A DNA stretch of 48,246 nucleotides from an uncultured bacterium (GTDB lineage: Bacteria > Bacillota_I > Bacilli_A > RFN20 > CAG-826): assembly GCA_949295325.1 (NCBI GenBank), contig CASFKG010000003.1, forward strand, positions 1-48,246, written 5' to 3'. Position 1 is the first letter of the stretch, and the number at the start of each line of letters is the position of its first letter. Both the position numbers and the translations under genes were made by a program. Below, piece after piece: positions 806 to 47,837 of the stretch. The notes beneath the pieces are model-generated. The model saw only the letters and a list, made by a program, of their open reading frames with translations, made no database searches and had not been told where the DNA came from.

Positions 806-811
806 TAGACT
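806..811 (+). promoter_or_regulatory. -10-like box (TAGACT) six bases before the start of the 818 gene
   Basis: TAGACT at 806-811, then aagcgc, then the GTG start at 818. No Shine-Dalgarno is visible. The spacing places the expected transcription start on the start codon, so the message may be leaderless. A convincing -35 box is not seen. Confidence 0.45.
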
Positions 812-817
812 AAGCGC

Positions 818-1243
818 GTGAAGAAATACTATTTCCTTGTCCGTCTTTCGTTACTAGGAGCCCTGGCCCTTCCACTTGTGCCTTTGTCGATTGTAAACGC
901 CATGGGGGAGTGGAGACTCGGTAACGATCCTTCCTATTCTTCCTTCCTCGTCTATATCGACCTCGGCCTGGCCCTTGTCCTTTTTATCGCCGAGCTTTGC
1001 TTTTGTCTGTTTTCGAGGAAACGCTACGAGGGCTTTTTCATCCGTGTTTCCCAAAGGGATACCCTGGCCGAACGGATATTCGAAATAGTTTCCGTCCTCG
1101 TCCTCATGGCGGGCCTGATACTTCTCATCTCCTCCCTTCTTACCACCCTTTCGGGGGACATGATCTATCTATCCGCGATTTTAATCGCCTACGGCGGGCT
1201 CGGCCTCGTCTACCTTTACATGAATGCGGCGAAGAGTTTCTGA
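818..1243 (+). CDS. Small membrane protein of unknown function
   Basis: 141 residues starting at GTG. The sequence shows four hydrophobic stretches at roughly residues 5-28, 43-67, 90-110 and 112-135, with short charged turns between them (for example FSRKRYEGFF after the second). It is therefore likely a four-helix inner-membrane protein with no extracellular domain. I do not recognise the family. The codon choice resembles the neighbouring genes and the frame is clean, so it is probably a real gene. It stands alone between the rRNA terminator and a decayed lipoprotein region. The start is supported by the TAGACT box exactly six bases upstream rather than by a ribosome binding site. Confidence 0.7.
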   Translation: MKKYYFLVRLSLLGALALPLVPLSIVNAMGEWRLGNDPSYSSFLVYIDLGLALVLFIAELCFCLFSRKRYEGFFIRVSQRDTLAERIFEIVSVLVLMAGLILLISSLLTTLSGDMIYLSAILIAYGGLGLVYLYMNAAKSF

Positions 1244-1322
1244 TACTTTAAGCAGCAAAAACATTTCTTGACATTATCGGCAGTTTCTGAAACTTTATAA
1301 GTAAGGTCTGGGAGGAAAGGCC

Positions 1323-1523
1323 ATGCTTAGTGAATTGCTTTTATGCACGCTTATTGGTTTAAGCGGATCCGCGTCAAGCCCGGTAGAAATGCCGGAAATC
1401 GCCGATGTCGGCGGATCGTTTCCGGCAGAAATTAACATCCCGGCTGGATTGGGTCTCCTACTTAAATTCAAGCACCTTTCGGGCGGTCGCTATTTCTTCT
1501 TGAATTGCTCTGTGGTTGATTAA
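1323..1523 (+). CDS. Short hypothetical protein, possibly a remnant
   Basis: 66 residues from ATG, with a good ribosome binding site (gggaggaaaggcc, 1310-1322). A TTGACA at 1268-1273 and tttata at 1294-1299 could form a promoter, but the spacer of 20 is too long. The product begins with a hydrophobic stretch (LSELLLCTLIGLSGS) that could be a short signal or membrane segment; I do not recognise the remainder. Its stop codon TAA overlaps the ATG of the following lipoprotein fragment. Because the downstream frame is broken, this ORF may itself be a piece of a decaying gene. Confidence 0.35.
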   Translation: MLSELLLCTLIGLSGSASSPVEMPEIADVGGSFPAEINIPAGLGLLLKFKHLSGGRYFFLNCSVVD

Positions 1524-2103
1524 TGAAAATTACTGGTTTGGCATTATGCCTAATAGGACTTTGCCTGTTTTCCTGCGGCCCTTCGGAGAATCCCGGTTTT
1601 TCTTCTAGCGGCCCCCTTCCCACTTGGGAAGCAAGGGTGGAGGAAGACGGCACCGCGGCCATATACGGCTATAACGGCTAGGCGGCGGACGTAGTCGTCT
1701 CGACCGCGTCCTCGTGGACGGGGAAATCTACGAGGCCGGGGGTTTCTACCCACAAGTTTAAGGGGCCACGAAGAAATAAGAAGCCTCAAACACCAGTTCG
1801 GGACCCAGAAGGGCGATTTGGACAAGAAGGCATTAGAGAAGCAAACCGAACTGGAACGGGAAATAACCGAACTCCTTCAAGGGCGATTTCGCCCGCAATT
1901 TCAATTTGGCGAAAGAAAAATTCGATAAAGCCGTGGAAAATTTCGATAGGACCATCGCCTTGCTGCAGAAAATAAAAGACGGTCTACTTGGAAACGAGAA
2001 CAATCTAAGGATCGCCAACGACAAGATCGACAAGGTAACCATAAGGAAACTCACGAGAAACGCCCCCTCGGTCGCCGAGGCCTTCAAGGAACTCGAAAAA
2101 TAA
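1523..2103 (+). pseudogene. Frameshifted lipoprotein gene remnant
   Basis: An ATG at 1523 opens a 52-residue frame with a lipoprotein signal (MKITGLALCLIGLCLFSCGP; lipobox LFSC) that ends at a TAG at 1679-1681 after ...AIYGYNG. A second frame, open from about 1700 to 1925, reads RVLVDGEIYEAGGFLPTS and then a charged coiled-coil-like part (KGDLDKKALEKQTELEREI). A third frame carries on from about 1878 (SFKGDFARNFNLAKEKFDKA) to a stop at 2101-2103 after FKELEK. Joined, these pieces make a plausible lipoprotein of about 190 residues with a C-terminal helical region. At least two frameshifts and one in-frame stop are needed, so the gene is either a pseudogene or carries sequencing errors. No family is recognised. 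Confidence 0.6.
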
Positions 2104-2124
2104 TAGTCCACCGCCGGTGGAAGC

Positions 2125-2145
2125 GGCCCTTATGGGGCCCTTTTT
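2125..2145 (+). terminator. Intrinsic terminator before asp23
   Basis: Stem ggccc/gggcc with loop ttatg, then c and five T. A further perfect hairpin (ccaccg/cggtgg, 2108-2120) precedes it. It closes the lipoprotein remnant. Confidence 0.7.
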
Positions 2146-2153
2146 AGGCTATA

Positions 2154-2182
2154 TGGATAAATGTCCCAAAGCGTGGCATAAT
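2154..2182 (+). promoter_or_regulatory. Probable promoter of the asp23-fakA-recG run
   Basis: TGGATA (2154-2159) as -35 and CATAAT (2177-2182) as -10 with a 17-base spacer. It lies just after a terminator and about 28 bases before the asp23 start, and leaves a short leader that contains agggg as ribosome binding site. Confidence 0.5.
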
Positions 2183-2209
2183 ACAGCCGCCTATTAGGGG
2201 TTCTTGAAC

Positions 2210-2572
2210 ATGGTCATAGATAAGTCCACGCCTTACGGCGGCATTGAAGTTTCGATCGAAGCCATCGCCCAAGTGGCCGGCGAAGCCGCCCTCGACTGCT
2301 ACGGCGTTTCGGGACTGGCCCCCAAGAATTCCCTGCGGGAGAACATCAACGAACTTCTCAATACCGATTTCAAGCGCGGCGTCTACTGCCGCCACGGCAA
2401 GAAAGGCGGCTACGAGGTCGACGTCTATCTTTACGTCGCCTACGGAGTGAAAATCACCGAAGTGGCCACCGAGGTACAGAAGAAGGTTCGCTACGATCTC
2501 GAAAAGACCTTCCAGATGCCGTTTAGGCAAGTAAACGTCATCGTCGCTGACATCAAGGAAATCAAGAACTAA
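2210..2572 (+). CDS. asp23: Asp23/YloU family envelope-stress protein
   Basis: 120 residues, typical of the Asp23/Gls24/YloU family. The N-terminal IEAIAQVAGEAALDCYGV and the DVYLYVAYGVKI segment match the family pattern, which consists of small cytoplasmic proteins often held near the membrane and linked to envelope stress. The ATG at 2210 is chosen over an in-frame TTG at 2204 because agggg (2196-2200) is nine bases from the ATG but only three from the TTG. The stop is followed after one base by fakA, the usual yloU-yloV arrangement, so the two genes are probably co-transcribed. Its direct biochemical role is not established from sequence. Confidence 0.9.
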   Translation: MVIDKSTPYGGIEVSIEAIAQVAGEAALDCYGVSGLAPKNSLRENINELLNTDFKRGVYCRHGKKGGYEVDVYLYVAYGVKITEVATEVQKKVRYDLEKTFQMPFRQVNVIVADIKEIKN

Positions 2573-2573
2573 T

Positions 2574-4280
2574 ATGCGGACTATCGACGGACAACAACTC
2601 AAAGAGCTGTTGATGTCGGGGGCCAATTACCTGTACAACTGCTACCCCGAAATCGACCAGCTCAACGTTTTCCCGGTTCCCGACGGGGATACCGGCATGA
2701 ACATGAATCTGACCTGCACGAGCGGGGTCAAGGAAATCCAAAACCGCAACGACGAGTCGTGCGCGAGCATCGCCACGGCCTATTCCAAAGGGCTTCTGAT
2801 GGGGGCCCGCGGGAACTCGGGCGTCATAACCTCCCAGATATTCCGGGGCTTTGCCTCCGGGATGGACGGGAAGGAAAAACTCACCGCGACCGACTTGGCC
2901 GCGGCCTTCGTCAAGGGGAGCGAGGTGGCCTACAAGGCCGTCATGCGTCCGGTCGAAGGGACCATCCTCACGGTCATAAGGGAATCCTCGGCCGCGCTTA
3001 AGGCCAGGGTCAAGAAGGACACGTCCATCGAAGACGTCTTCGACATCATGGTCGAAGAGGCCAACAAGTCGCTCCAACATACCCCGGAACTGCTTCCCAT
3101 CCTGAAGGAAGTCGGGGTCGTCGATAGCGGCGGCGCGGGGCTTCTTGCGATTCTGCGCGGGATGCGCGAGGCCAGCCACGGAAGGATGGTCGAAAGAAGC
3201 GACCTTTCTTCCCCTTCTTCCGAAAGCGGGCCGAAGGCTTCCCCCTACGCCGGGGCCAAACTCAGCGAATCGGAAGAGGGCTACGGCTACTGCACCCAGT
3301 TCATATTGAGGCTAGGTTCGCCCGATGACGGGAAGCGCCCCTTTTTGGAGAAGCGTTTCAAGAACTTCCTCAATACCCACGGCACTTCCTTGGTCATGGT
3401 CCGGGACGATGACATCGTCAAGGTCCACGTCCATACCCTTTCCCCGGGCACGATGCTCAACTATGCCCAGAACTACGGGGAGTTCGTGACCATCGTCATC
3501 GAGAACATGTCGGAAGAACACGACAACATCAGCCACGGCGAGATAGCGACCGACATGGAAGGGAATATCGCCCGGAAGTCCGCGGAAAAGAAAGCGGAGG
3601 AGAAACCCCTGAAGGAATCGGCGATGATCGCCGTTAGTTCCGGAGAAGGAATCGACGAGATGTTCAGGGAACTCGGGGTCGCCGTCCTCGTAAGCGGAGG
3701 CCAGACGATGAACCCCTCCACCCAGGACTTCATCGACGCGATAAAGAAGGCGCACGCGAAAAACGTCTTCATTTTCCCCAACAATTCCAATATCGTCATG
3801 GCCGCTTCGCAGGCCTGCGAAGTCGCTAGCAGCGGCGAAATCCGGGCCCGCGTCGTGCCGAGTAAAACCATCCTCCAGGGCTTCGCCGGGGCCATGCAGT
3901 ACATGCCGGAAGGCGATTTTGACGCGATGTACGAGGCCATGAAAGGCGCGCTCAAGACCGTGGCTTCCGGCTCGGTCACCTATTCCATCAAGGACACCGA
4001 CATCGAAGGCATCCACATAACCAAGGGCCACTACATGGCCATGAAGGAGGAAAAGGCCATCGTCGGCTGCGTGGCCGACAAGATGGAAGCCCTTTACTCC
4101 CTCTGCGGTTCCTTGGTAAACCAAGACACCTGCCTGCTCACCGTTTTGTGCGGCGAGGACGTCACGGAAAAGGAAGCCGGGGAAGCGAGGGAAAAACTAA
4201 ATGCGGAGTACCCGGATGCGGAAGTCGACGTCAAGATGGGCAAGCAGCCCGTCTACTCCTTCCTCGTCGGAGCGGAATAA
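2574..4280 (+). CDS. fakA: Fatty acid kinase ATP-binding subunit FakA (DAK2/YloV)
   Basis: 568 residues. The N-terminal DAK2 kinase domain shows FPVPDGDTGMNMNLT near residue 35 and ARGNSGVITSQIFRGF near residue 82, the nucleotide and metal binding motifs of this family. The C-terminal half (GEGIDEMFRELG, VFIFPNNSNIVMAASQA) is the YloV/FakA-type domain related to DegV. In characterised relatives FakA works with a FakB lipid-binding protein to phosphorylate fatty acids, giving acyl-phosphate for membrane lipid synthesis with PlsX. No fakB is in the window. The gene lies one base after asp23 and one base before the recG start codon. plsX, two genes downstream, acts on the same acyl-phosphate intermediate. 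Confidence 0.92.
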   Translation: MRTIDGQQLKELLMSGANYLYNCYPEIDQLNVFPVPDGDTGMNMNLTCTSGVKEIQNRNDESCASIATAYSKGLLMGARGNSGVITSQIFRGFASGMDGKEKLTATDLAAAFVKGSEVAYKAVMRPVEGTILTVIRESSAALKARVKKDTSIEDVFDIMVEEANKSLQHTPELLPILKEVGVVDSGGAGLLAILRGMREASHGRMVERSDLSSPSSESGPKASPYAGAKLSESEEGYGYCTQFILRLGSPDDGKRPFLEKRFKNFLNTHGTSLVMVRDDDIVKVHVHTLSPGTMLNYAQNYGEFVTIVIENMSEEHDNISHGEIATDMEGNIARKSAEKKAEEKPLKESAMIAVSSGEGIDEMFRELGVAVLVSGGQTMNPSTQDFIDAIKKAHAKNVFIFPNNSNIVMAASQACEVASSGEIRARVVPSKTILQGFAGAMQYMPEGDFDAMYEAMKGALKTVASGSVTYSIKDTDIEGIHITKGHYMAMKEEKAIVGCVADKMEALYSLCGSLVNQDTCLLTVLCGEDVTEKEAGEAREKLNAEYPDAEVDVKMGKQPVYSFLVGAE

Positions 4281-4281
4281 C

Positions 4282-6270
4282 TTGTTTCTTACCCGTAGCC
4301 CCAAGGTCGCCGAGGGGTTGGAAAAACTAGGAATCAGGGCCCCTTACGAGGCCCTTTGCCATTATCCCTACCGTTACGAGGACTTTTCCTATACCCCTTA
4401 CAAGGCCTTTCTCGAGGACAAGGAGAGGGTAGTGCTTTTAGGCCGTGCGGAAGGGGGAGTCAAAACCAGCCGCTTCCGGGGACATATGTCGAAGACGGCA
4501 TTTAGTTTCTCCTGCGTTAACGGAGGGCTTTACCAGGTCGTCGCCTGGAACCAGCCCTATCTATCGAAGGTGCTTTCGGGAGAGGGCCTATTTTCCTTGG
4601 TTGGAACCTACGACTATAAACGCCGGGAGATAAGCCTATCGAAGCTTTTAAAGGGGGAGATAAAGAAAGAAGACAGCCTTAGGCCCCTTTACCGCCTGCC
4701 TTCGAGCGTTCCCCAGCACACCTTCGTTTCGCTTCTTAGCAAGGGTATCGAAAACCCCGGTCCGGAGGCCGGGGAAGTCCTTCCCGCCTTCCTTAGGGAA
4801 AAGTACCGTCTCATCCCGCATCTCGAGGCCTTGAGGCGCCTGCATTTCCCGACCTCCTGGATTGATGTAAGGGAGGCTAGCCGCACCCTCAAGTACGAAG
4901 AGGCCTTGGCTTACGAAGTCGCAAACGTCTATGGACGGCGGAAAGAAGAGGCGCACAAGGAAAAGGGAAAGGCCGTCGACCTGCTCGCCTTAAAAGATAG
5001 AATAAAGGGTTTGGGCTATAGCCTTACCGGCGACCAGCTGAAGGCTTTGCGGGAGATAGTAGGGGACATGGAGGGCGATAGCCCCATGTACCGGCTGCTG
5101 CAGGGAGACGTCGGTACCGGCAAGACGCTGGTGGCGGCGTTGGCGATGTACGCGGAGGCGACTAGGGGGATGCAAAGCGCCCTACTAGCCCCGACCGAAT
5201 CGCTCGCCGAGCAGCATTATTCGGTTTTGCGCGGACTTTTCCCGGAACTAGAAGGGCGGATCACCCTTCTGACCGGGGGACTGGATTGTTCCTCGAGGAA
5301 AAAGGCCCTCGAGGATCTATCCGGCGGCAAGACGCTATTCGCGGTCGGGACGCACGCCCTGTTTTCGAAGGACGTGGTTTATTCCGGTTTGGGTCTAGCC
5401 GTCATCGACGAGCAGCATAAGTTCGGGGTTAGGCAAAGAAGGACTTTGCTCGAAAAGGGAAGGGACATGGACCTGCTCCTGATGAGCGCCACCCCCATTC
5501 CGCGGACCCTGGCCCTAACGGTCTACGGGGACTTGGAAATATCCACCATAAGGGAATTCCCGGGCGGCAAAAGGGATGTAACCACCCTCATTGCTTCCCC
5601 TAACGACAAGGACGTCTACAAGGCGGTACTTAAGCAGATTGACGAAGGCCGGCGCGTCTATGTCGTCGCCCCGGAAATAGAGGAAGGGGAAGACAAGGCC
5701 TCGAGCGTCCTTTCGGTCTACCGTTTCTTCGACCGCCTCCTTCCTAAACGCATCGCTCTTATGCATGGGAAAAGGAAAAGGGAGGAAAACGAAGCGGCCT
5801 TGCTTGCCTTCAAAAGCGGCATTTCGCCAATTCTCGTCGCCACCAACCTCATCGAGGTCGGAATAGACGTCAAGGAAGCCTCGATGATGCTGGTCTATAA
5901 TCCCACCCATTTCTCCCTGTCGGGACTTCACCAGTTGAGGGGCCGTATCGGCCGGGACGGGAGTCCTTCCTGCTTCTATCTCCTCTACAAAGGCAACGAC
6001 GAAAAGGAAATGGAAAAACTGAACGTCCTTGTCGGCACTTCGGACGGCTTCAAGATCGCCGAAGCCGATTTGAGGCTAAGGGGGCCCGGCGATATCGCCG
6101 GTACCGCCCAAAGCGGTCTGCCGGAATTCGCGCTTTGCTCGATAATCGACGACTACCCGATATTTAAGACGGCCCGGGAAGACGCCTCTCTACTTGCCTC
6201 TAACCCTAAGGGTATCCAGTTTGTTAGAATGCTACTAAAGCGGTCCTCTTCCCTTCCGGGAAGGGACTAG
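4282..6270 (+). CDS. recG: ATP-dependent DNA helicase RecG
   Basis: 662 residues when started at the TTG at 4282. That codon lies immediately after the fakA stop and nine bases after ggag (4269-4272); the frame is open further upstream but only inside fakA. The N-terminal wedge region is followed by the helicase core with Walker A GDVGTGKT near residue 275, the DEQHKFGVRQRR box near 375, and LLMSATPIPRTLALT (motif III). The C-terminal part holds QLRGRIGRDG (motif VI) and the RecG family tail. RecG remodels stalled forks and branched DNA in the cytoplasm. The length is slightly short of the usual 680-690, which fits the later start. The recG-plsX order matches other Bacillota, except that fapR is missing. 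Confidence 0.95.
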   Translation: MFLTRSPKVAEGLEKLGIRAPYEALCHYPYRYEDFSYTPYKAFLEDKERVVLLGRAEGGVKTSRFRGHMSKTAFSFSCVNGGLYQVVAWNQPYLSKVLSGEGLFSLVGTYDYKRREISLSKLLKGEIKKEDSLRPLYRLPSSVPQHTFVSLLSKGIENPGPEAGEVLPAFLREKYRLIPHLEALRRLHFPTSWIDVREASRTLKYEEALAYEVANVYGRRKEEAHKEKGKAVDLLALKDRIKGLGYSLTGDQLKALREIVGDMEGDSPMYRLLQGDVGTGKTLVAALAMYAEATRGMQSALLAPTESLAEQHYSVLRGLFPELEGRITLLTGGLDCSSRKKALEDLSGGKTLFAVGTHALFSKDVVYSGLGLAVIDEQHKFGVRQRRTLLEKGRDMDLLLMSATPIPRTLALTVYGDLEISTIREFPGGKRDVTTLIASPNDKDVYKAVLKQIDEGRRVYVVAPEIEEGEDKASSVLSVYRFFDRLLPKRIALMHGKRKREENEAALLAFKSGISPILVATNLIEVGIDVKEASMMLVYNPTHFSLSGLHQLRGRIGRDGSPSCFYLLYKGNDEKEMEKLNVLVGTSDGFKIAEADLRLRGPGDIAGTAQSGLPEFALCSIIDDYPIFKTAREDASLLASNPKGIQFVRMLLKRSSSLPGRD

Positions 6271-6284
6271 AAAGAAGGTATTTC

Positions 6285-16342: not shown

Positions 16343-16355
16343 GGCAAATAGGTTG

Positions 16356-16387
16356 ACCGCGGGTGTTGCCCCGCGGTTTTCCTTTTG
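16356..16387 (+). terminator. Intrinsic terminator of rplS
   Basis: Perfect eight-pair stem accgcggg/cccgcggt with a six-base loop, followed by ttttccttttg. Strong terminator 13 bases after the rplS stop. Confidence 0.9.
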
Positions 16388-16400: not shown

Positions 16401-16406
16401 TATAAT
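16401..16406 (+). promoter_or_regulatory. -10 box (TATAAT) six bases before the lepB start
   Basis: Perfect TATAAT at 16401-16406, then gggcag, then the GTG start at 16413. It follows directly after the rplS terminator. The expected transcription start coincides with the start codon, so lepB mRNA may be leaderless. A clear -35 box is not seen. Confidence 0.6.
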
Positions 16407-19567: not shown

Positions 19568-19596
19568 TTGACACCACTTTCCCCATCTTCTAGATT
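19568..19596 (+). promoter_or_regulatory. Promoter of topA
   Basis: Perfect -35 TTGACA (19568-19573), spacer 17, -10 TAGATT (19591-19596). Its position shows that the ATG at 19597 would lie upstream of the expected transcription start and supports the GTG at 19606 as the start codon. Confidence 0.8.
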
Positions 19597-19605: not shown

Positions 19606-21729
19606 GTGAAATTAGTAATCGTCGAATCACCCAAGAAGTGCGATACCATCGGCCGGTATCTAGGCTCGCCTTACAAGGTCATGGCCAGCCAAGGCCACAT
19701 CCGCGATTTGTCCACCCGCGGCAAGGGCGGATTGGGCATCGATTTGGAACATGGTTTCAAACCGGATTTTGTAATAGCCGAAGGCAAGGAAAGGATCGTA
19801 AACGCCCTCAAGAAGGCCTCGGGCGAGGCGGACGAAGTCCTGCTTGCAACCGACCCGGACCGCGAAGGGGAGGCCATATCGTGGCACCTTGCCGAGGTAT
19901 TGCACCTAGACGAGGAAAAGACCAAGCGCCTCCGTTTCCACGAAATTACAAAACCGGCTATATTGGAAGCCATAAATTCGCCTAGCCACATCGACATGAA
20001 CCTGGTCAATTCCCAGGAAACGCGCCGCATGTACGACCGCATAATCGGTTTCAAGCTGAGCAAGCTCCTCAACCAGAAGATGGGCTCGCCCAGTGCCGGA
20101 CGCGTCCAGTCGGTAACTTTGAGGATGATTGTCGATAACGATGCGGAGATCAAGGCGTTTGTGCCCGAGGAATATTGGGTACTACACGTTTCCGTCGACG
20201 TAAACGGCACCACCCTTGACATAGACCTCGACAAAATCGATGGGAAACCGGCGAAGATCAAGACCAAGGAAGAAGCCGAGGCCGTCCTTTCGCGAATTCC
20301 GGACGAGATACCGCTGACGTCTTTGACGACCAAGCCGAGGAGCATTCCCAGCGGCCTTCCTTTCACCACCTCCACGATGCAGCAAGAAGCCTACAACCGT
20401 TTCAAGTTCCCGACGGTAAAGACCCAACGCATTGCCCAAAGGCTTTACGAAGGCCTCGATATTGGCGGCGACCACGTCGGCCTTATTACCTACATGCGTA
20501 CGGATTCGGCGCGTATTTCGCCCGAATGGTTCCACAAGCATGCCGAACCTTACATTATCGAAACCTTCGGGCAAGAGTACCTCGGAGCTCCCAAGTCCGC
20601 TAAGCATGGGGTAAATGCCCAGGATGCCCATGAAGCCATCCGCCCAACCGGAACCCACAGGACCCCGGATGTAGTCGCCAAGTACGTCAGCGCCGACGAA
20701 GCCAAGCTCTACCGGTTGATTTATACGCGGGCCATGGCTTCCTTGATGGCTCCGAAGAAGGTGCTTTCGACGGTCGCGACTTTCGAGGCAAACGGGCTTT
20801 CCTTCAAAGCAACCGGATCGATAACGACATTCAAGGGCTACGAAGCCATCTACGGCAATTACGCCGAAAAGGACGATAATGAACTCCCACTCCTGAAGGA
20901 AGGGGACAGCTATCGCATTTCGAAGAAGGACGGGGAACAGAAATTCACCCAGCCCCCGGCCCGTTATAGCGAAGCCAAGGTCGTGAAACTCATGGAGGAA
21001 AAGGGCATCGGCCGTCCTTCGACCTATGCTTCCACCATCGATACGCTAGAAAAGAGGAAGTACATCGTTTCCAAAGGCGGCATTTTGACTCCGACGGAAG
21101 ACGGAATCAGAACCACCGTGGTTTTGGAAAAATATTTTCCCGAAATCGTCAGCGACAAATATACAGCCGACATGGAAAAGACGTTGGACGAAATCGAGGA
21201 AGGCAAGGAAACCAAACTCAAGGCAATGGAGGATTTCTATTCTCCGTTCATCAAGAAGTTCGACGAGGTGACCAAGGTCATGTACAAGGACCCGCCGGTG
21301 GAAACCGGCGAGAAATGCCCCGAATGCGGAGCTCCTTTGATTATCCGCAAGGGACCTTATGGTACCTTCATAGGATGCTCGAATTACCCCAAGTGCCGCT
21401 ATATCAAGAAGCCGGAAAAGGAAAAGCCCAGGGAAACCGGCGAACTTTGTCCCGAATGTGGGAAGCCCTTGGTCTACCGCAAAGACCGGAAAGGCAACGA
21501 ATTCGTCGCCTGCTCCGGATTCCCTGAGTGCCACTACATAAAAGGAAGCGAAAACGCGCCCAAGAAGGAGAAGAAGGCCTATACCGAGGCCGACTACGTA
21601 AAGCCGTGTCCGAAGTGCAAGACCGGACATCTTGTCTACAAACAGGGCAAGAAGGTCAAGTTCCTCGGATGCACGAATTTCCCCAAGTGCCACTACCATG
21701 AGTTCCTGCCAAAAGACGGCGACAATTGA
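19606..21729 (+). CDS. topA: DNA topoisomerase I
   Basis: 707 residues if started at the GTG at 19606, giving the canonical N-terminus KLVIVESPKK; an in-frame ATG at 19597 abuts the -10 box and would not be transcribed. The Toprim domain has LLATDPDREGEAISWHL near residue 80. The catalytic tyrosine is in GLITYMRTDS near 295. Three C-terminal four-cysteine zinc ribbons follow (CPECGAPL, CPECGKPL, CPKCKTGH) between about 565 and 700. It relaxes negative supercoils. Its 3' end overlaps trmFO by 32 bases. Confidence 0.95.
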   Translation: MKLVIVESPKKCDTIGRYLGSPYKVMASQGHIRDLSTRGKGGLGIDLEHGFKPDFVIAEGKERIVNALKKASGEADEVLLATDPDREGEAISWHLAEVLHLDEEKTKRLRFHEITKPAILEAINSPSHIDMNLVNSQETRRMYDRIIGFKLSKLLNQKMGSPSAGRVQSVTLRMIVDNDAEIKAFVPEEYWVLHVSVDVNGTTLDIDLDKIDGKPAKIKTKEEAEAVLSRIPDEIPLTSLTTKPRSIPSGLPFTTSTMQQEAYNRFKFPTVKTQRIAQRLYEGLDIGGDHVGLITYMRTDSARISPEWFHKHAEPYIIETFGQEYLGAPKSAKHGVNAQDAHEAIRPTGTHRTPDVVAKYVSADEAKLYRLIYTRAMASLMAPKKVLSTVATFEANGLSFKATGSITTFKGYEAIYGNYAEKDDNELPLLKEGDSYRISKKDGEQKFTQPPARYSEAKVVKLMEEKGIGRPSTYASTIDTLEKRKYIVSKGGILTPTEDGIRTTVVLEKYFPEIVSDKYTADMEKTLDEIEEGKETKLKAMEDFYSPFIKKFDEVTKVMYKDPPVETGEKCPECGAPLIIRKGPYGTFIGCSNYPKCRYIKKPEKEKPRETGELCPECGKPLVYRKDRKGNEFVACSGFPECHYIKGSENAPKKEKKAYTEADYVKPCPKCKTGHLVYKQGKKVKFLGCTNFPKCHYHEFLPKDGDN

Positions 21730-23005
21730 CGTTATCGGCGGCGGTCTTGCCGGAAGCGAGGCCGCCTACTATCTGCTAAAGCGGGGCTACAAGGTCAATC
21801 TTTTCGAGCGGCGTCCAAGCCACGACGACCATGCCCATGAAACCGGTCTTTACGGCGAGCTTGTCTGTTCCAATTCCCTGAAAGGGAAAGGCCTCACCAA
21901 CGCCTGCGGACTTTTAAAGGAGGAGATCCGCGAACTGGGCTCCATCGTGATGGAGGCAAGCGCAGTGAGCGAAGTACCTAGCGGCAACGCCCTTTCGGTC
22001 GACCGTGATATTTTCGCTGGGGAGATAACAAAAAGGTTAAAATCATTCCCTAACCTTACGGAAATCTCTATAGAAGCCGCCTCTTTTTCCGAAAATCCTA
22101 CTATTTTGGCTACCGGGCCTTTGACTGACGGCCCTCTTCTCGAGACCATTTCCAAAATAAGCGGGGCGGATGGTTACCATTTCTTTGACGCTTCCGCTCC
22201 CATTGTAAAAAAATCATCCCTTGATTTCGGCGTCTGCTATTTCAAGTCGCGTTACGAACAGGGCGATGATAGTTACATCAATTGCCCCTTCCATCAAAAA
22301 AGCGACTTCCTGAATTTCTATAACGAGCTTGTGCATGCCAAAAGGGCCTTGCTTCACGAAGGGGACGATGATTACTTCGAGGGATGTCTGCCGATTGAGG
22401 TAATCGCTTCCCGGGGTCCCGATACGCTTAGGCACGGCCCTCTTAAGCCGATGGGCCTCGAAATCGAAGGAATGAGAAGACCTTACGCGGTTGTACAGCT
22501 GAGACAAGACGACATGCTGGGCGAGTGCTACAACATGGTCGGCTTTCAGACGAATCTGACCTACCCGGAGCAGAAACGGGTTTTCTCCATGATTCCGGGT
22601 TTGGAACATGCGGAATTCGTCCGTTACGGTCTCATGCACCGGAACTTCTATCTCGATTCGCCGAGGGTACTTTCCAGCGATTTTTCATTCGTCAGCAAGC
22701 CGAACGTCTTCGCCGCCGGCCAGCTGACCGGGGTCGAAGGCTACGTCGAAAGCGCCGCTTCGGGAATCGCTTCGGCGATTTACCTCGACCAGAGGCTGTC
22801 GGGAATGCCGCTTTGCCGGGCCCCGGAAAAGACGATGCTTGGGAATCTGCTCAATTACGTAAGCCGATTCCCGGGGAAGCGGATGGAACCCATGAACGCC
22901 AACTGGGCCTTGTTCCCGGGAGTCAAAAAAGAGGATCGGGCAACGTATGCCAAAAATTCACTGGAGATAATAAAATCTTGGCGTGGCTTATTACCCGGAT
23001 ACTAG
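21698..23005 (+). CDS. trmFO: tRNA m5U54 methyltransferase TrmFO
   Basis: 435 residues from the ATG at 21698, the length usual for the family. The FAD-binding motif VIGGGLAGSEAAYYLL starts near residue 12; LKGKGLTNACGLLKEEIR and GQLTGVEGYVESAASG are TrmFO hallmarks, and YINCPFHQKSDFLNFYNEL is a conserved central block. The enzyme uses folate and FAD to methylate U54 in tRNA, the Bacillota alternative to TrmA. The start lies within topA with no clear ribosome binding site, so translation is probably coupled. Confidence 0.95.
   Translation: MSSCQKTATIDVIGGGLAGSEAAYYLLKRGYKVNLFERRPSHDDHAHETGLYGELVCSNSLKGKGLTNACGLLKEEIRELGSIVMEASAVSEVPSGNALSVDRDIFAGEITKRLKSFPNLTEISIEAASFSENPTILATGPLTDGPLLETISKISGADGYHFFDASAPIVKKSSLDFGVCYFKSRYEQGDDSYINCPFHQKSDFLNFYNELVHAKRALLHEGDDDYFEGCLPIEVIASRGPDTLRHGPLKPMGLEIEGMRRPYAVVQLRQDDMLGECYNMVGFQTNLTYPEQKRVFSMIPGLEHAEFVRYGLMHRNFYLDSPRVLSSDFSFVSKPNVFAAGQLTGVEGYVESAASGIASAIYLDQRLSGMPLCRAPEKTMLGNLLNYVSRFPGKRMEPMNANWALFPGVKKEDRATYAKNSLEIIKSWRGLLPGY
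22971..22976 (+). promoter_or_regulatory. -10-like box (TAAAAT) six bases before the xerC start
   Basis: TAAAAT at 22971-22976, then cttggc, then the GTG at 22983. It lies inside the end of trmFO. The TAA of this box also closes the xerC frame upstream, so GTG 22983 is the first possible start. Confidence 0.4.
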
Positions 23006-26015: not shown

Positions 26016-26021
26016 TAGAAT
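26016..26021 (+). promoter_or_regulatory. -10-like box (TAGAAT) six bases before the PAP2 gene start
   Basis: TAGAAT at 26016-26021, then atccac, then ATG at 26028. No Shine-Dalgarno. The gene follows a terminator, so a promoter is needed here; leaderless expression is likely. Confidence 0.55.
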
Positions 26022-31182: not shown

Positions 31183-31197
31183 ATATAGGATTTGATT

Positions 31198-40727: not shown

Positions 40728-40736
40728 TCTTCCGCT

Positions 40737-40813
40737 GCGCTCGTAGCTCAGCTGGATAGAGCACCTCCCTCCTAAGGAGGGGGTCAGGCGTTCGAATCGC
40801 CTCGAGCGCGCCA
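40737..40813 (+). tRNA. tRNA-Arg (anticodon CCT)
   Basis: 77 bases. Acceptor GCGCTCG pairs with CGAGCGC; anticodon stem cctcc/ggagg with loop ctcctaa, anticodon CCT; T-arm aggcgttcgaatcgcct; encoded CCA. Reads AGG. Confidence 0.95.
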
Positions 40814-40824
40814 GTAAACTATTT

Positions 40825-40848
40825 CCCGGCTCCGGCCGGGATTTTTTT
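40825..40848 (+). terminator. Terminator after tRNA-Arg(CCT)
   Basis: Perfect stem cccggc/gccggg, loop tccg, followed by a and seven T. Confidence 0.92.
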
Positions 40849-40875
40849 GCCTATATTTAGCCACCAAACCAAACA

Positions 40876-40881
40876 TATAAT
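40876..40881 (+). promoter_or_regulatory. -10 box (TATAAT) six bases before the choloylglycine hydrolase start
   Basis: Perfect TATAAT, then gttcat, then ATG at 40888. There is no purine-rich ribosome binding site in the preceding 30 bases. Strong candidate for leaderless expression. Confidence 0.65.
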
Positions 40882-40887
40882 GTTCAT

Positions 40888-41811: not shown

Positions 41812-41825
41812 GAAATTCTTTCTTA

Positions 41826-41854
41826 TTGACAAAGATTGCCCCCATCCATATATT
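41826..41854 (+). promoter_or_regulatory. Promoter of tRNA-Ala
   Basis: TTGACA (41826-41831), spacer 17, TATATT (41849-41854), 25 bases before the tRNA. Near-consensus. Confidence 0.9.
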
Positions 41855-41879
41855 AGGCAATGCGCATCCGCGCGGTGTT

Positions 41880-41955
41880 GGGGCGTTAGCTCAGCTGGGA
41901 GAGCGCCTCCATGGCATGGAGGAGGTCGAGAGTTCGATCCTCTTACGCTCCACCA
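41880..41955 (+). tRNA. tRNA-Ala (anticodon GGC)
   Basis: 76 bases. Acceptor GGGGCGT pairs with ACGCTCC (one G-U); anticodon stem cctcc/ggagg with loop atggcat, anticodon GGC; T-arm gagagttcgatcctctt; encoded CCA. Reads GCC. Confidence 0.95.
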
Positions 41956-41967
41956 ACATGAGAAATT

Positions 41968-41987
41968 CGGCCGTGAGGCCGTTTTTT
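41968..41987 (+). terminator. Terminator after tRNA-Ala
   Basis: Stem cggcc/ggccg, loop gtga, then six T. Confidence 0.9.
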
Positions 41988-42010
41988 GTTCCATTTTGTT
42001 CGCCTTCGGT

Positions 42011-42016
42011 TATTAT
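42011..42016 (+). promoter_or_regulatory. -10-like box (TATTAT) six bases before the GH13 gene start
   Basis: TATTAT, then catggc, then ATG at 42023; no ribosome binding site. TTGTTC at 41986-41991 is a possible -35 with a 19-base spacer. Confidence 0.5.
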
Positions 42017-42022
42017 CATGGC

Positions 42023-43744
42023 ATGAACAAACAAGCGATATTCCATCTAAACGATTCCCCTTTTTGCTTTGCCAATTCCCTTGATTCTTTGGTGATACGT
42101 CTTAAAACCGCCAAGGACGATCCGGACATCAGATCGATAAAGGTTATGGTCATGCGTAAATTCGCGATAAAGCAGATACGCCATTACTACGATATGGTCC
42201 GGGTTGGCTCGGACGACCTTTTCGACTATTACGAAACGCGTCTACGTATTTCCGATTCGCGTTTGATGTACGGTTTCGTAATCTCCGACTCCAAAGGCGA
42301 AGACCATCTTTTCGGGGAGATGGGTTTCTGCCACGACTTCGACGATTATCCATCAGGCTCCGGCTATTTCCAGATGCCTTACGTGAACGCGACGGATGTT
42401 ATCGGAGAGAACGGAAAATTCGCCGGCCGCGTCTTTTATCAGATTTTCCCCGATAGGTTTGCAAGGGACGAAAAAGGCCCTGGCAATCCGACGATGAAAT
42501 GGGGAGAAAAGCCTGACCGCATGCATTTCGCCGGCGGGAATATCCAAGGGATAATGGAAAAACTCGACTATCTAAGGGAACTCGGCATCGGAGGCATTTA
42601 CTTTACTCCTTTGTGGAAATCCGATTCGAACCACCGCTACGACACCTTGTCCTATGGGGAAGTTGATCCGCGTTTGGGGACCAACGAAGATCTGGTCAAG
42701 TTGGTAGATGAGTGCCATAAGCGCGATATCCTCGTGGTATTCGATTTGGTCTACAACCACGTTTCCTACCGGCATCCCTTCTTCCAGGACGTATTGAAAA
42801 ACGGACGTAGATCAAAATACTACGAATGGTTCATCGTCCATAAGGATCCCGTCAAATTTGCTGATGGATATTTTGAGCATTTCGGCAAGGCTCCTTTTAT
42901 GCCGAAACTCAATATGTCCAATCCCGAATGCGCGAAATATTTCGTTGACGTTGCCACCGATATCGTCAGGCGTTACGGCAACGACGGTTACCGTATCGAC
43001 GTTGCCGACGAAATAGCCCATGGCTTCTTCAACAAACTGAATCAGGCCATGAGGGAAATCGACCGGGATTTCCTATTGATATCCGAAGACTGGCACGAAG
43101 CTTCCACCTTTCTCAACTCCGGCCATGAGTGCGACGGGGTGATGAACTATTCGCTCCGGGCTTTGATCATCGAGGCTTTTGCCGAAAGGAAAATGAATCC
43201 GTCCGACTTTGTCGAGGGGATACATAAGATCTGGTACCGTTACAAGGAAGGGACGAATCTCCGGATGTTAAACCTTTTGTCCAGCCACGACGTTCCCAGA
43301 TATCTGAACATCTGCGGCCACGATATCGACAGATATCTGGCTAGTTTTGCCTTCTTGCTACTGTTCCCCGGGATTCCCTATATCTACTACGGGGACGAGA
43401 GGGGCATGGACGGATGCGATGATCCGGATTGCCGCAAGTGCGTTCTTTGGGACGAAAACAATCTGGTAATCTATCGCCCGATCAGGGAGTTGGTTAGATT
43501 CCGCAATGCCCTGGGCAAGGGGTTCAAAGGAATGAATCTCAAAGAAGAGAAGGGAGTCTTGATTCTCGAAACTTCTTATGAAGGCGGAAGTGCCTCCCTA
43601 GTAATCAATCTATCCGGCCACGATGTCGGATTGTCTAGCCAAGCCAGTCCGTCTACCAGCCGTCTATATGAAAGTAACAAACTTAAAGATTTGGGTTTTG
43701 CGTTGTTTTTGAACCTCAAGGCCTCTCTTTTTACGACTAACTGA
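42023..43744 (+). CDS. GH13 alpha-amylase family enzyme (cyclomaltodextrinase/neopullulanase type)
   Basis: 573 residues from the ATG at 42023. An N-terminal beta-rich domain of about 125 residues resembles CBM34 of neopullulanase-type enzymes. The barrel starts at FYQIFPDRFARDEKG; catalytic residues are the Asp nucleophile in GYRIDVADE near 320, the Glu in LISEDWHEA near 353, and the Asp in LLSSHDVPR near 420. GMDGCDDPDCRKCVLWDE is a typical loop of this subfamily. There is no signal peptide, so it degrades maltodextrins or cyclodextrins inside the cell. The C-terminal domain is short. No sugar transporter is adjacent. Confidence 0.9.
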   Translation: MNKQAIFHLNDSPFCFANSLDSLVIRLKTAKDDPDIRSIKVMVMRKFAIKQIRHYYDMVRVGSDDLFDYYETRLRISDSRLMYGFVISDSKGEDHLFGEMGFCHDFDDYPSGSGYFQMPYVNATDVIGENGKFAGRVFYQIFPDRFARDEKGPGNPTMKWGEKPDRMHFAGGNIQGIMEKLDYLRELGIGGIYFTPLWKSDSNHRYDTLSYGEVDPRLGTNEDLVKLVDECHKRDILVVFDLVYNHVSYRHPFFQDVLKNGRRSKYYEWFIVHKDPVKFADGYFEHFGKAPFMPKLNMSNPECAKYFVDVATDIVRRYGNDGYRIDVADEIAHGFFNKLNQAMREIDRDFLLISEDWHEASTFLNSGHECDGVMNYSLRALIIEAFAERKMNPSDFVEGIHKIWYRYKEGTNLRMLNLLSSHDVPRYLNICGHDIDRYLASFAFLLLFPGIPYIYYGDERGMDGCDDPDCRKCVLWDENNLVIYRPIRELVRFRNALGKGFKGMNLKEEKGVLILETSYEGGSASLVINLSGHDVGLSSQASPSTSRLYESNKLKDLGFALFLNLKASLFTTN

Positions 43745-43824
43745 AAACGAAGCGACGCGTTTTTTGCGGAATTTATAGGGAAAAGCCGACTTTGATAGTA
43801 AAATATAAAAAAGGAGCGAATCGT

Positions 43825-44037
43825 ATGGCAGGCGAAAATAAGACTTACCACATCAAGAAACGTACTTCCGATAACAAATGGGAAGTTAAGTACGCCGGCG
43901 GCGAAAAGGCGATAAAGCTATTCGACACCAAGAAAGAAGCCCTCGAGTACACCCAGAAGATGGCCCTGAACCAAGAAAGGGCCATCGTCGTTCACGCCTC
44001 GAAAGGCAAGAACAAGGGGAAATTCCGTAAGGCCTAG
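43825..44037 (+). CDS. DUF2188 domain protein
   Basis: 70 residues from the ATG at 43825, with aaggag ten bases upstream; the frame upstream (from 43792) is not supported. YHIKKRTSDNKWEVKYAGGE and FDTKKEALEYTQKMA followed by a basic GKNKGKFRKA tail match the small DUF2188 family, in which the pattern is a three-strand sheet plus helix. Function is unknown; the strong ribosome binding site and own terminator suggest good expression. Confidence 0.85.
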   Translation: MAGENKTYHIKKRTSDNKWEVKYAGGEKAIKLFDTKKEALEYTQKMALNQERAIVVHASKGKNKGKFRKA

Positions 44038-44050
44038 GTTTCTCCGGCAG

Positions 44051-44071
44051 CCGGGTTTTCCCGGTTTTTTT
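44051..44071 (+). terminator. Terminator after the DUF2188 gene
   Basis: Stem ccggg/cccgg, loop tttt, then seven T. Confidence 0.9.
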
Positions 44072-44073
44072 AA

Positions 44074-45015
44074 ATGCTTATGCTGATAACTTGTCTCATA
44101 ATCAACCATGCTTTGGACGGGGTTTTCGGGAAAAGAAAAGACGGTTCGACCCTTTTGGATTATTACGATGCCCCAAGCCTCGGTTTGACCGATTCGCGTT
44201 TCTTCTTCGATTCCGGCAAATATCGTCTGCAGGGGTCCCGCTATTACAAGAAAGGTTTAGGCAGGCCCAGGGCCGTCGTAGTTTTCTTCCACGGTCTAGG
44301 GGGAGGGCGTACCGGCTATCTCCATTTGATTTCCAGAATCGTCGATCAAGGCTATCTGGTCTATGCCTTTGACAATACCGGTTCGAACCAAGGAGAAGGA
44401 AAGTCCGTCGTCGGCCTCGGCCATTATTTTCTCGATCTGAAGGCCTTCTTTTCCTTTCTCGATAACGACGAAGCGGCAAAGGGACTTTGCCGTTATGGAA
44501 TCGGGCATAGTTGGGGTGGCTATGCGGCGATGCTTTCACTACATCCTGATTTTAATGTCGAAAGGGCCGTTTCCCTTGCCGGTTTCGTGGATCCGCTATC
44601 GATAATCTCCGCCTCCGCCAATTCCAGGTACCTGGATAAAATGTCGTTTTTGACCGATTGGATACTAAGAAGGAGGGAGGGGAATACCGGCAATCTCAAT
44701 GCACTGGATATCGCAGTTTCCAGCAACAAGCCACTGCTTTATATCCAAGGCAGGGACGACCCCATAGTCCCTTTTTGCAAAAGCGGCGCCATTGTCGAAA
44801 CGGCCTCGAGAAAACATTCGAAGATCGAAACGATGTTTATCGAAGGCAGAAGGCATTCCTGCTATCTGACGGACGACGCGGAAACGGCCGTGGAAGCCTT
44901 ATGGGGCGTCTGCCGCGACATAACGAAGGCGGGGAAAATCAATACCGATTTGGAAAAAGCAAGTGAAGAAGATCCCACAGTGCTAAAAAGGATATTCGAC
45001 TTTTTGTCCCGATAG
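44074..45015 (+). CDS. Alpha/beta hydrolase
   Basis: 313 residues. VVVFFHGLGGGRTGY is the oxyanion-hole region; the nucleophile is Ser in GIGHSWGGYAAM near residue 147; Asp in QGRDDPIVPF near 229 and His in GRRHSCYL near 264 complete the triad. A short hydrophobic N-terminus (MLMLITCLIINH) may be a membrane anchor or may lie upstream of the true start; the ATG at 44074 directly follows a terminator T-run and has no ribosome binding site, so the start is uncertain. Substrate unknown. It stands between the DUF2188 gene and a tRNA pair. Confidence 0.82.
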   Translation: MLMLITCLIINHALDGVFGKRKDGSTLLDYYDAPSLGLTDSRFFFDSGKYRLQGSRYYKKGLGRPRAVVVFFHGLGGGRTGYLHLISRIVDQGYLVYAFDNTGSNQGEGKSVVGLGHYFLDLKAFFSFLDNDEAAKGLCRYGIGHSWGGYAAMLSLHPDFNVERAVSLAGFVDPLSIISASANSRYLDKMSFLTDWILRRREGNTGNLNALDIAVSSNKPLLYIQGRDDPIVPFCKSGAIVETASRKHSKIETMFIEGRRHSCYLTDDAETAVEALWGVCRDITKAGKINTDLEKASEEDPTVLKRIFDFLSR

Positions 45016-45024
45016 GGTTATATT
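44996..45024 (+). promoter_or_regulatory. Promoter of the tRNA-Leu/tRNA-Arg pair
   Basis: TCGACT (44996-45001), spacer 17, TATATT (45019-45024), ten bases before tRNA-Leu. The -35 box lies in the end of the hydrolase gene. Confidence 0.6.
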
Positions 45025-45034
45025 AACCAAGCGT

Positions 45035-45119
45035 GCGCTGGTGGCGGAATTGGTATACGCGCTAGTCTCAGGAGCTAGTCGGGCAACCGGTGTGAGTTCA
45101 AGTCTCATCCAGCGCACCA
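45035..45119 (+). tRNA. tRNA-Leu (anticodon CAG)
   Basis: 85 bases with a long variable arm (cgggcaaccggt). Acceptor GCGCTGG pairs with CCAGCGC; anticodon stem ctagt/gctag with loop ctcagga, anticodon CAG; encoded CCA. Reads CTG. Confidence 0.94.
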
Positions 45120-45125
45120 CTTATT

Positions 45126-45202
45126 GCGCTCGTAGCTCAGTTGGATAGAGTGCAAGCCTCCGAAGCTTGAGGTCAGGCGTTCGAATCGCCTCGGGCGCGC
45201 CA
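45126..45202 (+). tRNA. tRNA-Arg (anticodon CCG)
   Basis: 77 bases. Acceptor GCGCTCG pairs with CGGGCGC (one G-U); anticodon stem caagc/gcttg with loop ctccgaa, anticodon CCG; T-arm same as the CCT tRNA-Arg; encoded CCA. Six bases after tRNA-Leu, so co-transcribed. Reads CGG. Confidence 0.95.
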
Positions 45203-45214
45203 ATATTCAAGAAC

Positions 45215-45234
45215 CCCTGCCTAGCAGGGTTTTT
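45215..45234 (+). terminator. Terminator after tRNA-Arg(CCG)
   Basis: Perfect stem ccctgc/gcaggg, loop cta, then five T and a second T run. Confidence 0.92.
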
Positions 45235-45266
45235 CTTTTTCCGCTTGTTTCTTTCCCAGCCTTTTG

Positions 45267-45272
45267 TAGCAT
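45267..45272 (+). promoter_or_regulatory. -10-like box (TAGCAT) six bases before the GH31 gene start
   Basis: TAGCAT, then aaggcc, then ATG at 45279. TTGTTT (45245-45250) is a possible -35 with a 16-base spacer. It follows a terminator directly. Confidence 0.55.
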
Positions 45273-45278
45273 AAGGCC

Positions 45279-47837
45279 ATGGAAAAATTAATTCTGGCCA
45301 ACTTCGCCTTGTCCTCACCATACGAAGACGTCCTCTACCTGCAGTACTCGCGTAGCGGAAACTTCAAAGACGATCCAACTTTGTACTGCCGGAAGGAGAA
45401 GAGTCCCGGTCCGAAAGATCTCGAAATAAAAAGGGCCGGGGTTCCGTATGAAATAGACTTCGGTGGCTACCAGGTCTGGTTTGCGGTTGGGAATGGCAAA
45501 ATGCCTAATCTCACGGTTACAAAACAAGGCAACGAAATTTATAAATTCTCGGAAATCAAAAACTCCGGCGAATTACCTTTTCCATCCAAGACTCCGGACG
45601 TATTCGGCTTAGTCGACAATCCTAAGATCTATATGCCCAGCCATGGGTATACGGCGGTCGGCGGCGGGAAGTATAACGGAGTGGAAATAGACGAAGATTC
45701 CTATGACCTATATCTTATTTTCGCCCACGGGGATTTCCGCAGGCTAAGGAAAGCCTATATCAAGATTACCGGCCGGACGCCGATGGTCCCCTACAGTGCT
45801 TTAGGTGCCTGGGATTCCAAGTACTTCGAGTACGACGACAAATCCATTCAGGAAGAAATAGATCTCTATGCCAGATACGGCTTGCCGTTAGACAATTTCG
45901 TTATCGATACCGATTGGAGGATAAACGACAATAACGGTGCCGGTTATAACGTCAATACAAAAGATTTTCCCGACATCCGACAGACCTTCGCGATGCTTCA
46001 TAGCCAAAACCTCCGAATCATGTTCAATGACCATCCGGAACCCGTACCCGGGGCTGACAATGTTTTCGACCCGATAGAAGTGGAGTTCAGGCAAAGCAAT
46101 CTGACCAGGCTATTAGAAGATGGACTCGATTATTGGTGGTATGACCGCAACTGGTGGACGAGGCTCAAGTCTCCCGTTTCCTCCCTAACCCCGGAAACCT
46201 GCGGCTTCTATCTTTATAACGACATTGCTTGGCGTTTCAACAAAAACCATCAGGCTGGCGATTATCCAGCAAGGACGATGATGATGGGCAACGTCGATCA
46301 GATCAGAAACGGATTGTACGAAGGTATAAGCAACAGTGCTTCCCACCGTTACCAAATCCAATGGACGGGCGATACCTACATGTCCGGGAAGAGTTTGTCC
46401 CAAGAATTTGCCAATATGCTCAAAGGCGGAAACAATTTAATCACATACATAAATAGCGATATTTCCGGACATATGGGAGACGGCGACGATAATCTCTATA
46501 TCCGTTGGCTCGAATATGGTGCTCTTTCGCCGATCTTCCGGCTCCATTCGACAAAAGGACAGAAACGTTACCGCCAGCCTTGGCTATACGGCAACCGGGC
46601 CCTAAAGGAAGCAAGGAAACTTTACGCTTTGAGGTATTCGCTTTTGCCATTGTTCTATTCCCTTGCCCACAAATCCTTCGAAGAAGGGCTGCCGCTGGTC
46701 TCTAGTCCCGATTACTTCGGCGCCGGAATTTCATCCTTGAAGGAGCCGGCTGCCATGCTCGGCGATAGCCTGGCCTATGCAGTTCCGATTCCCGACGACA
46801 AGATAGAGCCGCTGAAAAAGGCCAACGTTCCCGGTGGTTTCCGCGTCGATTACTTCCTTAACCGTAATTGCCGGGGGAAGCCCTTCCTTTCGAAATGCCA
46901 GTCCAAGATAGATTTTTCAGCCAAGCCGGGTGAGTCTCTTGATCCGGGAGTACTGCCAGATACGGATTATTCCTTTATTGCGCGCGGCACCTTGGTTGGC
47001 GATTCGACCGACAAGAGGCTTGTGGTCGGCAGCGATGACGGTATCAAGGTCTATCTTGACGGGAAACTCGTAATTTCATCTTGGCTGGAAAGGGCTTTTG
47101 CCCTCGACCAAGGCCCTTTGATAGAAAAAGGATCTACCCATGAACTCGTAATCAAGTACTTCCAAGGTGGCGGAGGCGCCTCCCTGGCAGTCGGCCTCCA
47201 AAACGCGAACGAAGGCAAGGATGCCTGCGCTTTCTATCTTCCAAAGGGAAGATGGCTCGGTTTATTCGACGGGGATTCGGTCCGAGTAAACGGCAGACAG
47301 AGTCTCGTAAGTGGAAATTACGGTTTCGGCGTCTTCCCGCTATACGTCCGGGAAGGTTCCGTCATTGTGAAGGCCAAGGCCACCGAAAGGACTGACTACC
47401 AGAACTACGATACCCTCTATGTGGATTTGTTTCCTTCCATCGAACACGACGGCCGTTTCGAACTATATGAAGACGACCGCAACACCGAAGCCTACATGGA
47501 TGGCTTTTTCCGCAAGACCGATTTTTGCCTCAAGGTCAGCGAAGACAAAGCCGTTCTTTCAATATCTGCCGCCGTCGGCAAAGGCTATGCGGGAGACGAT
47601 GCCTTTTCCCAAAGAAACATTGTCGTCCGTTTCCATTGCATCAATGGTTTCAAACCAAAAACGGTTTTATATGCTGGGGAAGAAGTACCAACCCAATTCA
47701 TGAGGAAATCGAAAAAGGCGTTTCCTCTTTCGAACGAAGGACCGGCTCCCGATTCCCCGATAGTGCAAGCCAAAATAACCATCGGGACTTCGAATGCGGG
47801 TGAGCTATCCTTCCTTTTCGGCGAAAGGAAGGTATAA
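45279..47837 (+). CDS. Glycoside hydrolase family 31 enzyme with PA14-like domain
   Basis: 852 residues. The GH31 barrel begins around residue 165 (TPMVPYSALGAWDSKYF); DNFVIDTDWR and IMFNDHPEPV mark early strands; the nucleophile Asp is in DYWWYDRNWW near 287 and the acid/base Asp in WTGDTYMSGKS near 362, with RLHSTKGQKRYRQPW further on. A PA14-like domain of about 85 residues (LVVGSDDGIKVYLDGKLV, near 585-600) is inserted in the C-terminal beta region. No signal peptide. Family activities include alpha-glucosidase, alpha-xylosidase and others; the exact one is not readable here. It could act with the GH13 enzyme on alpha-glucans. Confidence 0.88.
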   Translation: MEKLILANFALSSPYEDVLYLQYSRSGNFKDDPTLYCRKEKSPGPKDLEIKRAGVPYEIDFGGYQVWFAVGNGKMPNLTVTKQGNEIYKFSEIKNSGELPFPSKTPDVFGLVDNPKIYMPSHGYTAVGGGKYNGVEIDEDSYDLYLIFAHGDFRRLRKAYIKITGRTPMVPYSALGAWDSKYFEYDDKSIQEEIDLYARYGLPLDNFVIDTDWRINDNNGAGYNVNTKDFPDIRQTFAMLHSQNLRIMFNDHPEPVPGADNVFDPIEVEFRQSNLTRLLEDGLDYWWYDRNWWTRLKSPVSSLTPETCGFYLYNDIAWRFNKNHQAGDYPARTMMMGNVDQIRNGLYEGISNSASHRYQIQWTGDTYMSGKSLSQEFANMLKGGNNLITYINSDISGHMGDGDDNLYIRWLEYGALSPIFRLHSTKGQKRYRQPWLYGNRALKEARKLYALRYSLLPLFYSLAHKSFEEGLPLVSSPDYFGAGISSLKEPAAMLGDSLAYAVPIPDDKIEPLKKANVPGGFRVDYFLNRNCRGKPFLSKCQSKIDFSAKPGESLDPGVLPDTDYSFIARGTLVGDSTDKRLVVGSDDGIKVYLDGKLVISSWLERAFALDQGPLIEKGSTHELVIKYFQGGGGASLAVGLQNANEGKDACAFYLPKGRWLGLFDGDSVRVNGRQSLVSGNYGFGVFPLYVREGSVIVKAKATERTDYQNYDTLYVDLFPSIEHDGRFELYEDDRNTEAYMDGFFRKTDFCLKVSEDKAVLSISAAVGKGYAGDDAFSQRNIVVRFHCINGFKPKTVLYAGEEVPTQFMRKSKKAFPLSNEGPAPDSPIVQAKITIGTSNAGELSFLFGERKV

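Follow-up and report, generated by a model that had tools for sequence, protein, structure and literature searches.

Promoter-like hexamers six or seven bases before start codons suggest a class of leaderless genes in a genome of the Bacilli lineage CAG-826

In Mycobacterium and Deinococcus, leaderless genes coexist with genes preceded by Shine-Dalgarno (SD) sequences. Among Bacilli, differential RNA-seq identified 8.6% of the mRNAs of Streptococcus pyogenes as leaderless, with 9% quoted for S. agalactiae and S. pneumoniae, and 81% of the S. pyogenes cases were leaderless in S. agalactiae as well, according to the accessible part of that report (PMC6431027). A 2011 in-silico survey (PMC3160421), also available in part, described TA-led genes with a TANNNT signal approximately 12 bases upstream; these occurred in 56 of 209 Firmicutes genomes at a mean of 4.2% (2.4-16.6), were concentrated in Lactobacillales and Mycoplasma, and in Lactococcus had a TG before the -10 box. 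The present study concerns a 48,246-nucleotide stretch of DNA (hereafter the window; contig CASFKG010000003.1 of assembly GCA_949295325.1) from an uncultured bacterium of the lineage CAG-826, a genus known from metagenome assemblies. A sequence-only reading of the window had listed seven genes with a TANNNT hexamer exactly six bases before ATG or GTG and interpreted them as leaderless. All seven hexamers read back exactly as placed, and it is very probable that about 11% of the sampled genes of this genome have a housekeeping-sigma promoter abutting the start codon, which would yield leaderless mRNA.

The analysed genome comprises 1,102,061 bases in three contigs at approximately 55% G+C. The sample consisted of the window (43 genes) together with 20 stretches of 20 kb outside it (400 kb, 307 genes), giving 448 kb and 350 genes, and start codons were assigned by a gene caller that picks them from codon usage only and is blind to upstream sequence. 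The gap is defined as the number of bases between the end of TANNNT and the start codon, and the background as the mean over gaps 10-35. Outside the window, TANNNT was found at gap 6 in 28 genes and at gap 7 in 13, while each of the other gaps from 0 to 15 held 0-7 genes. With the window included, the counts were 33 and 13 against a background mean of 3.58, an excess at gaps 6 and 7 of 38.8 of the 350 genes (11.1%); the gap-7 genes are part of the gap-6 peak. The peak fell again at gap 6 (49), followed by gap 7 (26), when 1483 candidate in-frame starts were considered, compared to 3-19 at other gaps. In the whole genome, TATAATN6ATG occurs 17 times and the reversed pattern once; because TATAAT may itself outnumber its reverse, the reversed pattern was dropped as sole control and a gap-11 control was used instead. 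A genome-wide search for TANNNT enrichment had been named beforehand as able to refute the leaderless interpretation, and its outcome favored that interpretation, with the peak reproduced outside the window.

The 46 genes with a hexamer at gap 6 or 7 share several further features. The most common hexamers among them are TATAAT and TAAAAT (eight each), and C occupies the position directly before the start codon (-1) in 34 of the 46, compared to 21.7% of the other 304 genes (p 6e-14), as is expected if transcription begins on the start codon; three congeners show the same preference (31/49 vs 29.9% of others, p 1e-6). Of the 46 genes, 19 have a TG at -3/-2 or -5/-4 relative to the hexamer (control offsets: mean 3.4, maximum 7), as do 20 of the 49 congener genes (mean 3.8, maximum 7). 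This TG resembles TRTGN, the extended -10 motif of sigma-A promoters in Gram-positive bacteria. At a 17-base spacer, T is found at each of the first two places of the -35 region in 24 of the 46 (p 0.0007). GTG starts are enriched (11/46 vs 23/304) and TTG starts nearly absent (1/46 vs 16/304), a pattern that fits transcription starting on the purine of the start codon and that, together with the C at -1, points to an initiator context there. The hexamer is also more common at rough operon heads (29/152) than at internal genes (14/179), with 3 of 19 at stretch edges. These features suggest that the hexamer belongs to a promoter of the sigma-70/sigma-A type. In the proposed mechanism, the -10 box of a housekeeping-sigma (sigma-A) promoter would end six or seven bases before the start codon, RNA polymerase would start on the A or G of that codon with the C at -1 as initiator context, and the ribosome would engage the 5'-terminal AUG or GUG by a 70S or IF2-dependent route, the remaining genes having SD leaders or neither signal. 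Initiation of this type on leaderless mRNA is known from other bacteria (PMC6431027 among the sources, in its accessible part).

It is also conceivable, but improbable, that the -10 box is real and that the transcripts carry leaders of 1-4 bases, or that the true start codon lies close by. The gene topA fits this explanation: the promoter-like arrangement TTGACA-17-TAGATT at 19568..19596 (forward strand) ends nine bases before the probable start, GTG 19606. Among the loci of 14 relatives with an aligned N-terminus, 10 (two from one genome) start at the residue of GTG 19606 and four start one or two codons earlier, making this GTG the most likely start. The same TTGACA-17-TAGATT is kept in G394, the nearest congener (82% identity in topA), where it is followed by 11 bases, counted by eye, and then ATG. 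Thus, while the nine-base gap that had led topA to be described as a near variant of the seven genes holds for GTG 19606, topA transcripts would carry a few bases of leader rather than being leaderless. Gaps 8 and 9 are likewise slightly above background in the 350 genes (6 and 7 vs 3.58). However, C at -1 tracks the start codon at both gap 6 (79%) and gap 7 (62%), as if the transcription start site and the codon were locked together, which favors leaderless transcripts over short leaders. Less probable still is that the hexamer is an AT-rich ribosome-recruiting or low-structure element inside a leader rather than a promoter. Non-SD AT-rich signals have been reported in other phyla (PMC9581028, PMC5397173; both sources available in part), but this reading was rejected: the TANNNT form, its placement to within one base, its excess at operon heads, the preceding TG and the C at -1 all fit a promoter.

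The putative leaderless genes occur in a genome in which SD initiation appears to operate as well. The proposal of two coexisting initiation modes is borne out at the level of signals: SD words cluster at gaps 5-9, and a separate set of genes has hexamers at gaps 6-7. Of the 46 genes in that set, 42 have no SD word. The 16-base sequence GGATCACCTCCTTTCT has one mismatch-free match in the genome, at C1:651202, which was taken as the 16S tail with its anti-SD; given this match to the usual tail, the SD and leaderless routes can coexist. Loss of the SD system through an altered or missing anti-SD was considered and rejected, since GGATCACCTCCTTTCT is present. In some Flavobacteriia, CCUCC is missing from the 16S tail, according to a source available in part.

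Comparison with G394 indicates that the arrangement is kept between species. Among 67 orthologues with aligned N-termini, seven of the nine genes that have the arrangement in the window genome keep it in G394, and it was found in none of the other 58 (Fisher 4e-8). Six of the seven genes in the original list keep it in a relative, five of them (818, named by the position of its start codon, the signal peptidase, PAP2, GH13 and GH31) in G394 at gap 6 or 7. Conservation thus appears clear in the near relative and is thin beyond G394. Together with the genome-wide peak, it supports the leaderless interpretation, and it is from the position and promoter-like anatomy of the hexamer, this conservation and the coexistence with SD signals, all read directly, that we infer the 5' ends of the transcripts and the ribosomal step. 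A chance origin of the whole set, by selection of genes that happened to match a loose motif, has next to no probability: approximately 1% of genes match at any single gap and two genes discussed below (xerC and 31198) look accidental, but the peak outside the window and the conservation in G394 refute chance for the set, although single genes may still be chance matches.

The distribution of the signature was also examined in other genomes. The excess at gaps 6 and 7, 11.1% in the window genome, was 7.4% in G394, 6.9% in G143, 6.3% in G205, 5.0% in G260 and 3.3% in G239, five congeners represented by 11 to 13 stretches each; four others (G123, G178, G191 and G246) offered only one or two stretches that could be used, too few for a verdict. 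A survey of 149 genomes of the class compared the pattern TATAATN5CRTG (gap 6) with the same pattern at gap 11. In the family of the window genome, the counts were 186 vs 47, with gap 6 higher in 15 of 15 genomes; family f21 showed 256 vs 103, and family f14, more weakly, 111 vs 60. The other 115 genomes of the class showed no excess when summed (966 vs 1005), with families among them varying from 17 vs 8 (f20, one genome) and 27 vs 14 (f18) to 43 vs 83 (f24) and 8 vs 18 (f5). In a small, partly masked pool of 166 genes from other genera in the family, gaps 6 and 7 held 11 genes each (mean over gaps 10-35, by hand, 7.7), and no peak was seen at these gaps in the pools for the order (3 and 2 of 131 genes) and the class (2 and 6 of 123), which are likewise small and partly masked. 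The sequence signature attributed to leaderless genes is patchy across the class. Within f21, a strong gap-6 excess was observed in G099 (39 vs 4), G133 (32 vs 5) and G140 (29 vs 7), and none in G076 (18 vs 22) or G120 (12 vs 12). The stretches from genus g1 span 36% to 63% G+C within one genus.

Several results weigh against the leaderless interpretation or narrow its reach. Background alone predicts approximately 7 of the 46 gap-6/7 genes (2 x 3.58). In the more distant congeners G143, G205, G239 and G260, the arrangement persists in only 3 of 9 gene pairs; it is present there in 3 of 92 pairs that lack it in the window genome. G239 shows a weak excess (13 genes vs 7.4 expected), and G267, which belongs to another genus of the same family, has no excess at gaps 6 and 7 (6 seen vs 5.9 expected, 0.0%). 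The -35 TT at a 17-base spacer gives no signal in three congeners (12/49 at each place), and the best match to TTGACA at spacers of 16-19 is barely above shuffled sequences (at least 4 matches in 10 of 46, approximately 7 expected). A purine at +1 is weak evidence by itself, as ATG and GTG make up 288 of the 304 starts elsewhere, and the lack of SD words in the gap-6/7 genes is in part a consequence of the hexamer taking up the place where an SD word would lie. Finally, the gap-11 control is imperfect, with some families scoring below 1 against it. In G267 (L079, L086, L157-L166), TANNNT was also observed at gap 9 in 10 of 193 genes (background 2.96), which may be accidental or may reflect leaders a few bases long.

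The individual sites in the window, all on the forward strand, illustrate both the arrangement and the difficulty of calling such genes. Product names follow Pfam, except that xerC is the name given by the sequence-only reading, Pfam matching phage-integrase domains. With the starts of the codon-usage caller, a gap-6 TANNNT precedes 5 of the 43 window genes (lepB, xerC, PAP2, GH31 and 31198). The caller agreed with the originally proposed start for lepB, xerC, PAP2 and GH31 only; it missed the choloylglycine hydrolase, and for 818 and GH13 it placed the start further downstream. Start prediction that lacks a leaderless model thus errs on such genes. At the left end of the window, the putative -10 box TAGACT (806..811) lies six bases before GTG 818, which begins a gene of 141 aa with no Pfam match; in G394 (L063; 53% identity), the aligned start is also a GTG, with TAAACT seven bases before it. 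The signal peptidase gene lepB (Peptidase_S26) has TATAAT (16401..16406) six bases before GTG 16413, preceded by a terminator-like sequence at 16355-16378, and its G394 counterpart has TATAAT seven bases before ATG. The PAP2-family gene has TAGAAT (26016..26021) six bases before ATG 26028, preceded by an inverted repeat and a T-run, with TACAAT six bases before ATG in G394 (48% identity).

The remaining three conserved sites lie between 40737 and 45279, where each of the starts 40888, 42023 and 45279 is immediately preceded by a tRNA gene and a T-run. The choloylglycine hydrolase-family gene, behind tRNA-Arg (40737-40813), has TATAAT (40876..40881) six bases before ATG 40888, a start fixed by the protein beginning MC, with Cys2 presumably the catalytic residue of the family; TATAAT also lies six bases before ATG in G143 (L050; 39% identity). 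Behind tRNA-Ala (41880-41955), the GH13 enzyme has TATTAT (42011..42016) six bases before ATG 42023, a start fixed by an N-terminal domain match from residue 1, and TAAACT six bases before ATG in G394 (L107; 62% identity). Behind tRNA-Arg (45126-45202), the GH31 enzyme has TAGCAT (45267..45272) six bases before ATG 45279, and TAACAT seven bases before ATG in G394 (L107; 55% identity).

The xerC example is probably a coincidence: its TAAAAT (22971..22976), six bases before GTG 22983, lies within the end of an overlapping upstream ORF (21632-23005) and has no counterpart in G394. Of the 16 xerC loci shown, that of G421 (L169) has TAGAAT at gap 6, and nine others keep TAGAAT in place with the first start codon four or five codons after the aligned position, suggesting that what is conserved is the upstream gene's coding sequence. 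TAGGAT (31186..31191), six bases before ATG 31198, was absent from the original list; it was set aside as probably a chance match because the hexamer is absent from the G394 orthologue at 84% identity. Elsewhere in the sample, a divergent DEAD helicase and LytB (L036:16754-18987) lie 35 bases apart, each with a gap-6 hexamer, and their promoters would share the 35-base gap; a gap-6 hexamer is also present in G260 at the aligned LytB-like gene (41% identity), and the helicase there has TATAAT nine bases before ATG (by eye). A divergent LysR-type regulator and cyclophilin-like gene (L027:11522-12851), 85 bases apart, both have a gap-6 hexamer as well.

There is a tentative evolutionary reading of these patterns, which we regard as possible, if somewhat doubtful. 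A few families of Bacilli that have received little study (the window family and f21) may each have expanded leaderless initiation on their own, with promoter and codon evolving as a unit. Between relatives, the codon would shift by a single base, from gap 6 to gap 7, and might change from GTG to ATG or back, the start site remaining locked to it. For single genes behind tRNAs or terminators, this may be a main route of initiation. More broadly, the data indicate that leaderless genes are probably a sizeable class in this genome, conserved in a near relative and beside a working SD signal, and the survey points to lineages suited to asking why leaderless mRNAs persist. None of the literature titles and abstract openings dealt with leaderless genes in this lineage, although this does not prove that no such work exists.

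Compared to the known systems, Mycobacterium and Deinococcus share the coexistence of the two modes, but belong to other phyla and have larger fractions (up to 40% of transcripts), as far as the partial sources report. The TA-led genes of the 2011 survey have the same signal and distance as those of the window genome, whose fraction is toward the upper end of the surveyed range, by a different method; the accessible part of that survey does not mention a lineage like this one (PMC3160421). The streptococci are likewise Bacilli in which a minority of mRNAs are leaderless, according to the available part of that work (PMC6431027); there the fraction was measured by differential RNA-seq, whereas here it is deduced from sequence in a genome of presumably another family. 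The published fractions in streptococci and in Firmicutes (PMC6431027 and PMC3160421, in part) also weaken the earlier remark that such signals are less expected in Bacilli. Leaderless mRNAs are already established in this class, and the present genome adds a further case.

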